Positions 31,166 through 45,095 of a stretch of DNA of 64,000 bases are shown here, piece after piece (the stretch's first letter is position 1; the number at the start of each line of letters is the position of its first letter). Under the pieces are notes generated by a model. The model made no database searches, had not been told where the DNA came from, and saw only the letters and a program-made list of their open reading frames with translations. Source of the stretch: Paracoccus tegillarcae (GTDB taxonomy: Bacteria > Pseudomonadota > Alphaproteobacteria > Rhodobacterales > Rhodobacteraceae); NCBI RefSeq assembly GCF_002847305.1, contig NZ_CP025408.1:1757001-1821000 (forward strand). The letters run 5' to 3'. Position numbers and translations under genes: made by a program.

Positions 31166-32137
31166 TCAGGGCCGCATTGCCGCGCCCCAGGGAAAGCGGC
31201 CGACCTTGATCGTCTTGATCGGGTTGCGCGCGGCCACGTCGATTACCGTCACGTCGCCCGATACGCCATTGGTCGTGAACAGCTGCGAATTGTCGGGCGA
31301 AAAGGCCATGTGCCAGACGCGGCGGCCAACCAGAATGTAATCCTCGACCTCCAACGTGGCCATATTCACCACAGCGACATGATTCGCCGGACCAAGCGCG
31401 ACCCATGCGAATTCGTTGGCTTCGTCGAACTTGAAGCCGACGGGCTGGATCTTGTCGGGGTGGATATTGGGCATATCAAAACGCACCTTGCCCAGTTCGG
31501 CCTGCGTTTCGGTGTCAAATATCGTGATCGTGCCACCGATTTCCGAACTGACCCAAAGCTGGCTGCCATCGCTGGTGAACTCGGCATGGCGCGGGCGGCT
31601 GTCGACCAGTGTATTGGCGAACAGCTGCTGCGTTTCCGTGTCGATCCAATGCGCCATATTCGTGGTTTCACTGGTCGTGATCGCGATCTTGCCATCGGGG
31701 CTGACAGCCATGCCTTCGGGCTCGATCCCGACATTGATCTGGGCCACGACTTCGTGGGTTTCGGTGTCGACGACAGTTGTGATCGCGTCGTCCTCGTTGG
31801 CGATATAGAGGTGCCGGTTATCGGGATGCAGCACGAATTGTTCGGGATCCTCGCCCGAGGGCAGGTCGTGCAGAATCTCACCTGTGTCGGGGTCCATCAC
31901 CTGCACGGTGTCGCTGTCGGAGGCGCAGATATAGACGACGCTGTGATCGTGACTGAAAATGATGCCGCGAGGGCGCTCGCCGGTGGGGATGGTGCGGGTG
32001 ACCTCCATGCTGTCGACGTCGATCACGCTGATGGTGTTGTCCTTTTCATTCGTCACCCAGATTTCGGCGGCCATCGGGGCGGTGGCCGCCAGAAGGGTCA
32101 GGCAGGTCGAGGCAAGGGTAAGGCGATAAAGCGACAT
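31166..32137 (-). CDS. PQQ-associated YVTN beta-propeller protein
   Basis: Periplasmic protein of 323 residues with a signal peptide (residues 1-21, ending PMAA) and seven propeller blades with YVTN-like repeats such as EIWVTNEKDNTISVIDV, HLYIANEDDAITTVVD and QLFTTNGVSGDVTVIDV. It fits the family found only in operons for PQQ-dependent alcohol catabolism. Its role is not known; a scaffold or sensor for the periplasmic dehydrogenase is a reasonable guess. I chose the ATG at 32137 after AGGAAAT; the longer TTG start at 32164 lacks a signal peptide and overlaps the upstream gene's stop. Confidence 0.85.
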   Translation of the reverse strand: MSLYRLTLASTCLTLLAATAPMAAEIWVTNEKDNTISVIDVDSMEVTRTIPTGERPRGIIFSHDHSVVYICASDSDTVQVMDPDTGEILHDLPSGEDPEQFVLHPDNRHLYIANEDDAITTVVDTETHEVVAQINVGIEPEGMAVSPDGKIAITTSETTNMAHWIDTETQQLFANTLVDSRPRHAEFTSDGSQLWVSSEIGGTITIFDTETQAELGKVRFDMPNIHPDKIQPVGFKFDEANEFAWVALGPANHVAVVNMATLEVEDYILVGRRVWHMAFSPDNSQLFTTNGVSGDVTVIDVAARNPIKTIKVGRFPWGAAMRP

Positions 32138-32153
32138 CGGATTTCCTGTCAGA

Positions 32154-43073: not shown

Positions 43074-43283
43074 TCACCCCCAAGCCGACTGCAAATCGTG
43101 ATGGCTGAACGGCGCCCCAAGCGGCGTCCGCAGGTTTGATCACGCATGGGGCGTACTGCGAATCACGACCGGATTGTATCTCATACCTAAGTCTTACTAC
43201 GATACGAGAATTGATCGGTTTTCCGCCGGGTCGTTAACTCGGAGTTGCGTGCGCGTTAAGCGCCCACCCTGAGGGAGGAACCG

Positions 43284-45095
43284 ATGAAGTTACTTGGCGC
43301 GACCGCAATTGCGGCGATCATGATGACACTGCCCGCCGTGGCACAGGTCACAGAAGAGGATCTGGCAAGCGATCAGACTGTCACCCAGACGGTGCTGACC
43401 AATGGCATGGGGCGCGATCTGCAGCGCTTTAGCCCATTGGATCAGATCAACAAGGAAAACGTCAGCCAACTGGTGCCCGCATGGGCCTTTTCGATGGGCG
43501 GCGAAAAGCAGCGCGGACAAGAAGCGCAACCGCTGATCTATGACGGCATCATGTATGTCACCGGCTCTTACTCGCGGCTTTACGCCATCGACGTGAACAC
43601 CGGCGACGAGTTGTGGCAATATGACGCCCGCCTGCCCGAAGGCATCCTGCCCTGCTGCGATGTGGTCAACCGCGGTGCGGCGATCTATGGCGACAAGATC
43701 TTTTTCGGCACTCTGGACGCGCGCATCGTCGCGCTGGACCTGAAAACCGGCGACGTGGTCTGGCGTGACCAGATCGCGGATTACAAGGCGGGCTACAGCT
43801 ATACCGCCGCGCCGCTGATCGTGGACGGCATGGTCATCACCGGCAATTCCGGCGGCGAATTTGGCGTCGTTGGCGAAGTGCAGGCCCGCAATGCCGACAC
43901 CGGCGAGATGGTCTGGACCCGCCCGGTGATCGAAGGTCACATGGGCACGCTGAACGGCGAAGACAGCACCATGACCGGCACGCTGAACGCGACCTGGCCG
44001 GGCGATATGTGGAAAACCGGCGGCGGGGCGACCTGGTTGGGCGGCTCTTATGACGCTGACACCGATACGCTGGTCTTTGGCACCGGCAACCCGGCGCCGT
44101 GGAACAGCCATCTGCGCGATGCAGGGGCGCCGACCGAAGGCAATACCGGCGACAACCTCTATGCCGCCTCGCGCCTTGGCATCGACCCGAAAACCGGCGA
44201 GATCAAGTGGCACTTTCAGTCGACGCCGCGCGAAGGCTGGGATTATGACGGCGTGAACGAAGTCGTTGCCTTCACCGATTCCGAAGGCGCCAAGAAATTC
44301 GCCACCGCTGACCGGAACGGCTTTTTCTATGTGCTGAACCGCGAAGATGGCGCGTTCATGAATGCATGGCCCTTCGTCAAGGACATCACCTGGGCCAGCG
44401 GTATCGACGAGACCGGACGCCCGATCTTCAACGAGGACAACCGTCCCGGCGATCCTTCCGCTGCGACCGAGGGTCAAAAAGGCGAAACCGTGTTCTCGGC
44501 ACCCGGCTTCCTGGGTGGCAAGAACTGGATGCCCATGGCCTATAGCCAGAATACCGGGCTGTTCTATGTGCCGTCGAACGAATGGGGTATGGATATCTGG
44601 AACGAGCCTGTCGCCTACAAGCAGGGCGCGGCCTATCTGGGTTCGGGCTTTACCATCAAGCCGATGTACGAGGACCATATCGGCTCGCTGAAGGCCGTCG
44701 ATCCGATGACCGGCGAATGGAAGTGGGAATACAAGAACGAAGCCCCTCTGTGGAGCGGCGTGATGACCACCGCCGGCGGTCTGGTCTTCTTCGGCACACC
44801 CGAAGGCAAGTTCCTGGCGCTGGATGACGAAACCGGCGAAGAGCTGTGGTCGTTCCAGACCGGCTCGGGCATCGTCGGTCAGCCTGTGACCTGGGACATG
44901 GACGGGCAGCAATATGTCTCGATCGTCTCGGGCTGGGGTGGCGCCGTGCCTCTGTGGGGCGGCGAAGTTGCCAGCAAGGTCAACTATCTGAACCAGGGCG
45001 GCATGGTCTGGACGTTCCGGATCCCGACTGCGGCAAGTTCGGCCGCGGCTGATCCCGCCGAAGAGGCCCCGGCAGATGAGGCCTCCAGCGGCTGA
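43284..45095 (+). CDS. PQQ-dependent alcohol dehydrogenase, lanthanide-type (PedH/ExaA/XoxF superfamily)
   Basis: Periplasmic quinoprotein that oxidises alcohols and passes electrons to cytochrome c. The 603-residue protein has a signal peptide (1-21), an eight-bladed propeller with Trp-docking repeats, the adjacent-Cys ring C124-C125 (GILPCCDVVNRG), TGNPAPWN, and the active-site motif GWDYDG: catalytic Asp is D320 and an extra Asp, D322, stands two residues on. That extra Asp marks lanthanide-binding enzymes (XoxF, PedH) and is Ala/Ser/Thr in calcium enzymes. The N-terminal part resembles PedH/ExaA more than MxaF. The C-terminal 22 residues form an unusual Ala/Glu/Ser-rich tail. Ribosome site GGGAGGA precedes the ATG. 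Confidence 0.93.
   Translation: MKLLGATAIAAIMMTLPAVAQVTEEDLASDQTVTQTVLTNGMGRDLQRFSPLDQINKENVSQLVPAWAFSMGGEKQRGQEAQPLIYDGIMYVTGSYSRLYAIDVNTGDELWQYDARLPEGILPCCDVVNRGAAIYGDKIFFGTLDARIVALDLKTGDVVWRDQIADYKAGYSYTAAPLIVDGMVITGNSGGEFGVVGEVQARNADTGEMVWTRPVIEGHMGTLNGEDSTMTGTLNATWPGDMWKTGGGATWLGGSYDADTDTLVFGTGNPAPWNSHLRDAGAPTEGNTGDNLYAASRLGIDPKTGEIKWHFQSTPREGWDYDGVNEVVAFTDSEGAKKFATADRNGFFYVLNREDGAFMNAWPFVKDITWASGIDETGRPIFNEDNRPGDPSAATEGQKGETVFSAPGFLGGKNWMPMAYSQNTGLFYVPSNEWGMDIWNEPVAYKQGAAYLGSGFTIKPMYEDHIGSLKAVDPMTGEWKWEYKNEAPLWSGVMTTAGGLVFFGTPEGKFLALDDETGEELWSFQTGSGIVGQPVTWDMDGQQYVSIVSGWGGAVPLWGGEVASKVNYLNQGGMVWTFRIPTAASSAAADPAEEAPADEASSG

Follow-up and report, generated by a model that had tools for sequence, protein, structure and literature searches.

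A NosR-like flavoprotein paired with a PedH-type alcohol dehydrogenase in a putative, jointly regulated alcohol-oxidation island of Paracoccus tegillarcae

Related systems

The island described here lies in a 64,000-nucleotide stretch of the Paracoccus tegillarcae genome (NZ_CP025408.1, positions 1,757,001 to 1,821,000), referred to as the window. Between positions 31166 and 45095, the window encodes a pyrroloquinoline quinone (PQQ) alcohol dehydrogenase, the cytochrome PedF, a NosR-like flavo-iron-sulfur membrane protein (NosRL) with an adjoining ApbE, and a trio of response regulator, FIST protein and hybrid histidine kinase. With a probability of about 0.6, the island is a jointly regulated alcohol-oxidation regulon, in which a PedH-type enzyme has two electron exits, PedF and NosRL, and a trio of the FlhR/AfdR/ErdR type acts through an ACTU-like palindrome.

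NosR and NapH-type proteins are considered to transfer electrons outward. NosR resembles NosRL in length, in its N-terminal flavin mononucleotide (FMN) domain, in a set of 12 cysteines and in its partner ApbE. The two differ in sequence (about 30–35% identity), in the FMN motif (GATVT in NosR, KAT[AV]S in NosRL) and in their neighbours, which are nosZ in the case of NosR and PQQ genes in the case of NosRL.

In 172 genomes, flavinylated NapH/NosR-like proteins have been found near the ExaA ethanol oxidase, from which they were proposed to receive electrons (Méheust 2021, PMC8238504). Like the present locus, this NapH-like system combines an FMN-binding, iron-sulfur, multi-helix membrane protein and ApbE with a nearby PQQ ethanol oxidase. 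Unlike the analysis presented here, that paper in its accessible text names neither a regulator nor a signature and does not test whether the genes co-occur across genomes. In Pseudomonas, nosP-nahK is located in the ped cluster, and the ped/exa cluster, as far as the accessible part of the source goes, shares with the island PedF, PedG and PedA1/A2-type genes, a PedH-type enzyme and a FIST–kinase pair (PMC12997753). The window differs by adding a NosR-like/ApbE pair within an operon of regulators, and no PedS2/PedR2-type genes were seen between 31166 and 45095.

The order of regulator, intervening open reading frame (ORF) and kinase is known from flhR-orf2-flhS of P. denitrificans and from afdR-afdT-afdS and rfdR-rfdT-rfdS of R. 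sphaeroides, which are C1- or aldehyde-linked systems of close bacterial relatives with a middle ORF of unknown role (PMC4776306). According to the parts of that source available, both AfdRS and FlhRS are activators in the presence of formaldehyde or compounds that yield it, RfdRS is regarded as a repressor whose signal is unknown, and AfdRS and RfdRS seemingly have no conserved cysteines. The known targets of these systems differ from the island, as they are glutathione-formaldehyde genes. A further relative is CrbS/R (MxtR/ErdR; ErdR is another name of CrbR), whose ACTU operator was demonstrated with a mutated acs promoter in P. fluorescens, most other ACTU words in the accessible text being predictions with poor q-values (PMC5715377). 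Its operator words align in register with the island palindrome, and ErdR is the best NCBIfam model for the island regulator. The described CrbS/R regulon serves acetate use, in contrast to the island, and its kinase, CrbS, carries an SLC5 domain and has no link to FIST.

The initial annotation of the window, made from the letters alone, knew of no description of the whole combination. This holds in that no report joining all the parts was found, yet NapH/NosR-like proteins beside an ethanol oxidase (PMC8238504) and nosP-nahK in a ped cluster (PMC12997753) had been published. The literature search covered titles and abstract openings, few subscription papers and no supplementary tables, and is weak evidence of absence. 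Within this scope, nothing joined a NosR-like protein, a FIST trio and a PQQ dehydrogenase, and no report was found of a tight NosRL–PedH pairing, coexistence with PedF, the signature or a common operator.

Co-occurrence of NosRL with PedH-type dehydrogenases

The dehydrogenase of the window has PedH as its closest solved structure, with 822 bits against 692 bits for 1flg, which we take to be ExaA. Its GWDYDG stretch contains the second, lanthanide-type aspartate and aligns with GWDFDG in PedH (6zcv/6zcw; PMC11996626), as opposed to AWDFSG in 1flg. The extra aspartate is in line with the lanthanide type assigned by the initial annotation, and the enzyme is probably lanthanide-dependent.

NosRL, the PQQ dehydrogenase and the FIST protein were each searched for in one set of 196 genomes of the order. 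NosR-like matches form two groups, namely 45 at an identity of at least 59% and the remainder at about 28–41%. The cut-offs of at least 59% for NosRL and at least 75% for the dehydrogenase were set in gaps of the match lists, where the next full-length values are 34% and 56%. Dehydrogenase orthologues occur in 45 genomes; 44 genomes contain both genes, one contains NosRL alone, one the dehydrogenase alone and 150 neither (Fisher 1.4e-41). The two genes are at most 25 kb apart in 35 of the 45 genomes. In the own genus, four of 11 sampled genomes have both and seven have neither at these cut-offs. The FIST gene is more widespread (93/196) and includes all 45 genomes with NosRL; it is found within 5 kb of the dehydrogenase in 30/45 and within 25 kb of NosRL in 24/45. 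A conserved neighbourhood, which the initial annotation had named as the check on its own proposal, is thus present across the order.

In a sample of 398 Pseudomonadota, thresholds of E<=1e-93 for NosR-like matches and of at least 58% identity for PedH-like enzymes were applied, so that NosR or NosRL proteins scoring worse than 1e-93 are outside the count. NosR-like matches were obtained in 22 genomes, 16 of which have NosRL and five only NosR; one genome (G851) was left unclassed, as was the second match of G692. Five own-family genomes (G003, G008, G015, G022, G024) were classed as NosRL via identity of at least 59% and not via the motif, and G633, with SATIS at the FMN site, is tallied among the NosRL genomes. 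PedH-like enzymes are present in 33 of the 398 genomes and cover all 16 with NosRL (Fisher 8e-20), including 10/10 outside the own family. Of the five NosR-only genomes, four (G647, G658, G850, G882) lack a PedH-like enzyme at E<=1e-100, and G699 encodes one. Within the sample, NosRL is thus never without a PedH-like enzyme, and the enzyme also exists without NosRL. The genes need not adjoin, as in six genomes (G593, G623, G633, G692, G725, G834) the PedH-like gene is either on a different contig or separated from the fetched NosRL by over 700 kb.

A search of the class gave NosR-like matches in five of 385 genomes. One of these, G368, encodes a NosRL at 45% identity together with ApbE, a binding protein, a kinase and a FIST protein, but no regulator match was found at this locus; its PedH-like gene is some 13 kb distant. 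In other classes, which we guess to be Gammaproteobacteria, six loci (L121–L125, L128) have NosRL-type genes away from ped genes and distant from the PedH-like genes of the same genome.

Neighbouring genes were compared in 80 named NosRL loci, the best 80 of 358. The gene caller missed or misplaced some genes (purH in the window, nosZ in L132 and L134), and the counts of neighbour families are consequently lower bounds. Relatives of the PedG-like binding protein are present in 60/80 loci and Sel1-like relatives in 28/80. PedF is encoded on the same piece as NosRL in 58/80 loci. In the published NapH-like system, the flavoprotein stands in for the cytochrome c of other microbes (PMC8238504, accessible text), whereas here pedF accompanies it, in 49 of the 58 loci whose two 10-kb flanks are full, and has the same operator. 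For this group, the data therefore do not bear out NosRL as a replacement of cytochrome c.

A plasmid of Ruegeria sp. SCSIO 43209 carries the whole alcohol-oxidation block (L160, 3628–30123) with an IS6 transposase at its edge. The block comprises kinase–FIST–regulator, the PQQ dehydrogenase, Sel1, ABC genes, the propeller, a binding protein and PedF, followed by a second binding protein, CoxGSLM-like genes, ApbE, NosRL and pqqABCDE. On Pseudosulfitobacter plasmids, e.g., CP070878.2, NosRL and FIST are about 16 kb apart among the matches listed.

NosRL is distinct from NosR

NosRL scores 457 bits against the NCBIfam NosR model, whose cut-off is 1000. Its FMN site reads TKATAS in the window, while the NosR type is [STA]GATVT; where the published motif [S/T]GA[S/T] has glycine, NosRL has lysine. 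The motif statements cover the rows of two alignments, with 20 and 36 rows, and not all 80 loci. KATAS is found in all rows of the first. In the second, 14 of the 16 rows from the own genome and the named loci read [TS]KATAS and two (L091, L094) TKGTAS; of the 12 further rows without nosZ, ten read [AST]KAT[AV]S and two (L120, L125) SATIS; all eight nosZ-adjacent rows read [STA]GATVT. The 12 cysteines are kept in 36/36 rows, NosRL and NosR alike. A NosZ query (tblastn) matched at all eight GATVT loci but at none of the 12 other non-GATVT loci or the 80 named loci, nor in the window. Denitrification NosR was considered as an identity for NosRL and was ruled out by the model cut-off, the single copy in the genome, the FMN motif and the absence of an adjoining nosZ.

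In the tree, 19 rows of the order's type together with G222, G612 and G368 form a starred clade separate from NosR. KATVS proteins of other classes are placed nearer NosR (91/69, unstarred; midpoint root), and KAT-type proteins possibly do not all belong to one clade.

NosRL has the features by which flavinylated NapH-like proteins are broadly recognised, namely a Fer4_5 membrane protein (PF12801), the TKATAS site and apbE. ApbE is encoded 3' of NosRL on the same strand in the window and in 74/80 loci, and NosRL is presumably flavinylated by it. A search of PDB sequences found no NosR and no FIST structure. AlphaFold, given 20 close rows, produced a NosRL model of low quality, with a predicted local distance difference test score (pLDDT) of 64 and a predicted template modelling score (pTM) of 0.46, which was not used.

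A palindrome common to the NosRL and pedF promoters

Dyad counts 5' of NosRL, weak by themselves, pointed to a palindrome. A matrix built from 78 NosRL promoters reads TnnGACCaAgGTCGcATAGG. At a threshold of at least 13 bits, it places sites before NosRL in 76/80 loci, before pedF in 57/58 and before the ABC binding gene, which has a divergent region in common with pedF, in 55/59. Sites precede coxG in 4/23 cases, the pedG-like gene in 2/60 and family F24 in 3/9; those before F8 (26/38) and a PqqB-like gene (10/15) lie, by gene order, in a region common with NosRL. None was found before six regulator, four FIST, four kinase, 74 ApbE, 59 propeller and 28 Sel1 genes. In total, the 80 loci gave 196 merged sites, of which 13 lie elsewhere; eight sites were found when these bases were replaced by a first-order Markov copy. 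No site of at least 12 bits was found in the eight nosZ loci. In the window, the matrix gave four matches, against 22 in 1.28 Mb of Markov sequence, i.e., about one per window.

Since the NosRL promoters had trained this matrix, a matrix was retrained on pedF promoters alone. It recovers 72/80 NosRL promoters at a minimum of 10 bits, compared with 1% of shuffled ones, as well as 13/18 promoters of the PQQ dehydrogenase, 27/59 of the ABC gene and 5/28 of Sel1. Across the whole window it gives five matches of at least 9 bits, all of them in the two divergent regions of the island.

By its letters, the island palindrome is similar to the ACTU operator of CrbR/ErdR. All eight distinct ACTU words present in the accessible part of PMC5715377 scored best in the same register, with 6.4–20.6 bits on one strand at shifts 0–3, and the acs word that was mutated scored 20.6.

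The regulator–FIST–kinase trio

Regulator, FIST and kinase are found together in 20/20 loci fetched around FIST matches of the order. The nearest NCBIfam model of the regulator is ErdR, at 157.6 bits of a cut-off of 390. A relative of the FIST protein (P0134, 79% identical) is named GfdT by NCBI, and it is this name alone that links the middle ORFs to FIST; orf2, AfdT and RfdT may accordingly be FIST proteins. The gene order of the trio is that of flhR-orf2-flhS, afdRTS and rfdRTS.

Cysteines C65 and C323 of the FIST protein are present in 145/145 rows and also in 40/40 rows of an alignment that includes ten from other classes and does not contain the second FIST-like match of G738 (L172, 28%), whose blastp match was too weak. 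In the same 40 rows from this class and others, H362 is invariant and H203 is kept in 39. A heme ligand could not be distinguished among the invariant residues of these rows.

The own genome has a second trio (L153; FIST on contig 1, 1551983–1553065), which is 38–42% identical to the first and lies near PqqB/C/D/E-like genes. About 22 kb from it is a weak Cytochrom_D1 match in a 371-aa frame (contig 1, 1529532–1529852).

Proposed mechanism and alternatives

In the proposed mechanism, alcohol would be oxidised in the periplasm by the PedH-type, probably lanthanide-dependent dehydrogenase. Electrons would leave via PedF, a route known for homologues, and additionally via NosRL carrying ApbE-attached flavin, whose FMN and iron-sulfur centres may pass them into the membrane and on to the quinone pool. 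This last step, from the dehydrogenase or PedF to quinone, is on its own held to have somewhat less than an even chance; the direction is preferred because the constant partner of NosRL is the dehydrogenase. The pairing suggests a second exit route for alcohol electrons. The trio would be alcohol- or aldehyde-responsive and would bind the palindrome before the NosRL operon and the pedF/ABC genes; as it sits inside the NosRL operon, it would control itself in this genome. In a more specific and rather unlikely form, NosRL would be a flavinylated PQQ-dehydrogenase:quinone oxidoreductase beside PedF, marked by KAT[AV]S and co-switched by the FlhR/ErdR-type regulator, and FIST would sense aldehyde through Cys65/Cys323 rather than NO (nitric oxide). 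If true, a second route to the quinone pool would mean a different energy yield from alcohol for a widespread group of bacteria, and the common operator would be a ready reporter for whatever the trio senses. The island also connects two literatures, on NosP/NahK as NO sensors and on Flh/Afd/Rfd as formaldehyde systems, which seemingly concern the same gene arrangement.

Several observations weigh against this interpretation. The NosR/NapH-type proteins characterised so far are considered to transfer electrons outward, i.e., in the opposite direction (PMC8238504, accessible text). As 17 of the 33 PedH-like genomes of the phylum have no NosRL at the threshold used, NosRL is dispensable, and G505 combines a divergent NosR-like protein (SATIS) with a dehydrogenase of only 44%. 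PedF is absent within the flanks in 9/58 loci with full 10-kb flanks, while the other 13 of the 22 loci without it have a flank shorter than 9.9 kb; L041 and L073, with full flanks, have pedG and binding-protein genes and no pedF match, and for plasmid SC52, pedF lies elsewhere on the same plasmid. The operator was obtained from a matrix trained on NosRL promoters, and the seed of the pedF matrix also came from inspecting them. With the NosRL matrix, only 6/22 dehydrogenase promoters reach 13 bits and 13/18 reach 10 bits, and the gene in the window itself is preceded by a very weak match of 5.0 bits. The operator common to the pedF/ABC genes and the NosRL operon does support the interpretation of the initial annotation, although the window's own dehydrogenase gene has only this weak match. 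The motif is unevenly distributed outside the order, as no site of at least 12 bits was found in L120–L125, L127 and L128, although L127 has ped genes and NosRL, and the single site in G612 (L118) is not before NosRL. Finally, according to the accessible part of PMC4776306, an rfdT mutation in R. sphaeroides had no effect on adhI expression with formaldehyde.

The most serious alternative, though an unlikely one, is that NosRL works outward like NosR, so that quinol electrons reach the periplasm via FMN, where they would serve to activate or maintain a partner, be it the PQQ dehydrogenase or some other periplasmic protein. It has a precedent in the family, for which a donor such as quinol and delivery to the periplasm are described in the accessible text of PMC8238504; the 12 cysteines of NosR are kept, and an extra electron outlet is not obligatory because PedF is usually present besides NosRL. 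However, the co-occurring partner is a dehydrogenase, and no conserved periplasmic reductase was noticed in the loci, many of whose neighbour families are unassigned. Also unlikely is that a different CrbR/ErdR-type regulator encoded elsewhere, and not that of the operon, binds the operator. The motif is that of CrbR and the genome has its second trio at contig position 1551983, but the presence of FIST in every NosRL genome of the order, and mostly close to the dehydrogenase, argues for the trio of the operon.

Compared with the favoured aldehyde- or alcohol-responsive trio, NO sensing by a FIST–kinase pair of the NosP/NahK type, coupled to alcohol oxidation, is improbable. The two proteins are homologous to NosP and NahK, nosP-nahK is part of the Pseudomonas ped cluster (PMC12997753, accessible part), and any of the invariant residues C65, C323 and H362, or the nearly invariant H203, might be a heme ligand. 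Nevertheless, the scores stay below the curated cut-offs, with 341.1 of 450 for FIST against NosP and 374 of 1500 and 337.8 of 400 for the kinase against the NahK/ErcS' models. The own genome has no NirK match and no NosR, NosRL being its one NosR-like gene, and its two Cytochrom_D1 matches are the island propeller and the weak match in the 371-aa frame, neither being a full NirS-like match; nitric oxide reductase was not searched. The gene order, moreover, is that of formaldehyde systems. Among 16 FIST loci from genomes without NosRL (L137–L152), ten have CoxL/CoxM-like genes beside the trio, and the other six are without identified neighbours, so that denitrification genes are possible there. 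The NO sensing put forward by the initial annotation is thus unsupported. These Cox genes open a further, very improbable reading, in which the trio mainly controls a CoxGSLM-like molybdenum hydroxylase and the PQQ island is a mere neighbour. A coxG gene was called in eight of the 16 loci and is preceded by a site of at least 10 bits in 8/8. Yet no Cox genes adjoin the trio in the window, and in NosRL loci coxG promoters far less often carry a 13-bit site than NosRL promoters do. A CoxGSLM-like enzyme was also rejected as a dedicated partner, since CoxL-like genes (E<=1e-200) occur in 159/196 genomes and are hence unspecific.

Layout of the island

On the minus strand, from 42392 to 35272, NosRL, ApbE, response regulator, FIST and hybrid kinase follow one another with 4-nt ATGA/GTGA overlaps at all four junctions, and therefore look like one operon (Table 1). 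The Sel1-like and dehydrogenase genes are divergent from it; 3' of the operon, pedF and the pedG-like gene are convergent to it, and the binding-protein and propeller genes are co-directional. Pfam/NCBIfam scans confirmed all the genes named in the initial annotation, and its single island agrees with the operon overlaps, the conserved neighbourhood and the common operator. The starts of ApbE and PedF given as probable in the table are the most likely ones, judging from gene overlap and a Shine-Dalgarno-like sequence. A simple scan of the hybrid kinase gave no hydrophobic segment. Scans for sigma-70 promoters and terminators gave nothing clear over shuffled sequence.

Table 1. Genes and operator sites of the island, with window positions and profile or matrix scores.
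Feature	Position	Strand	Evidence
PQQ-associated beta-propeller, PedA2-like	31166..32164	-	TIGR03866, NCBIfam 518 bits (cut-off 287)
ABC-type binding protein of PQQ alcohol systems, PedA1-like	32154..33392	-	TIGR03863, 475 bits (cut-off 414)
Operator palindrome, divergent TIGR03863/pedF region	33402..33425	.	26.5 + 21.5 bits NosRL matrix; 24.9 + 17.8 pedF matrix
Second operator copy 5' of pedF	33448..33467	+	21.9 bits NosRL matrix; 14.7 pedF matrix
Cytochrome c550 PedF (start probably 33525)	33456..34238	+	TIGR04494, 177 bits (cut-off 122)
Periplasmic binding protein, PedG/XoxJ-like by position	34238..35266	+	SBP_bac_3
Hybrid histidine kinase, probably cytosolic	35272..37488	-	two PAS_7, HisKA, HATPase, receiver
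FIST protein, GfdT/NosP family	37485..38630	-	FIST N + C domains; 341 bits with the NosP model (cut-off 450)
LuxR/NarL-type response regulator, nearest model ErdR/CrbR	38627..39403	-	157.6 bits with the ErdR model (cut-off 390)
ApbE FMN transferase (start probably 40296)	39400..40353	-	PF02424, 154 bits; overlap
NosR-like flavo-iron-sulfur membrane protein (NosRL)	40293..42392	-	NosR model 457 bits, below cut-off 1000; TKATAS; 12 conserved Cys; hydrophobic segments
Operator, NosRL promoter region	42426..42445	-	20.1 bits NosRL matrix; 20.6 pedF matrix
Weaker second palindrome, NosRL/Sel1 divergent region	42451..42474	.	6.2 + 7.8 bits NosRL matrix; 9.1 pedF matrix
Sel1-like, probably secreted protein	42519..43073	+	weak Sel1 match below Pfam cut-off
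PedH/ExaF-type PQQ alcohol dehydrogenase, lanthanide-type Asp	43284..45095	+	TIGR03075, 773 bits (cut-off 480)

Other features of the window

Downstream (3') of the dehydrogenase gene, a plus-strand frame (45692–48040) encodes a protein with C-terminal RTX repeats (PF00353) and a HEIGHILGF stretch resembling a zinc-protease site. Among the 80 NosRL loci, only L065 and L083 gave matches to this protein, which are short and span a tenth of it. ARAGORN called a tRNA-Ala at 27680–27776 (+), which lies inside an rsmB-like ORF (27073–28320) and is probably false. A thiamine pyrophosphate (TPP) riboswitch is found at 63356–63457 (+) with 60.7 bits.

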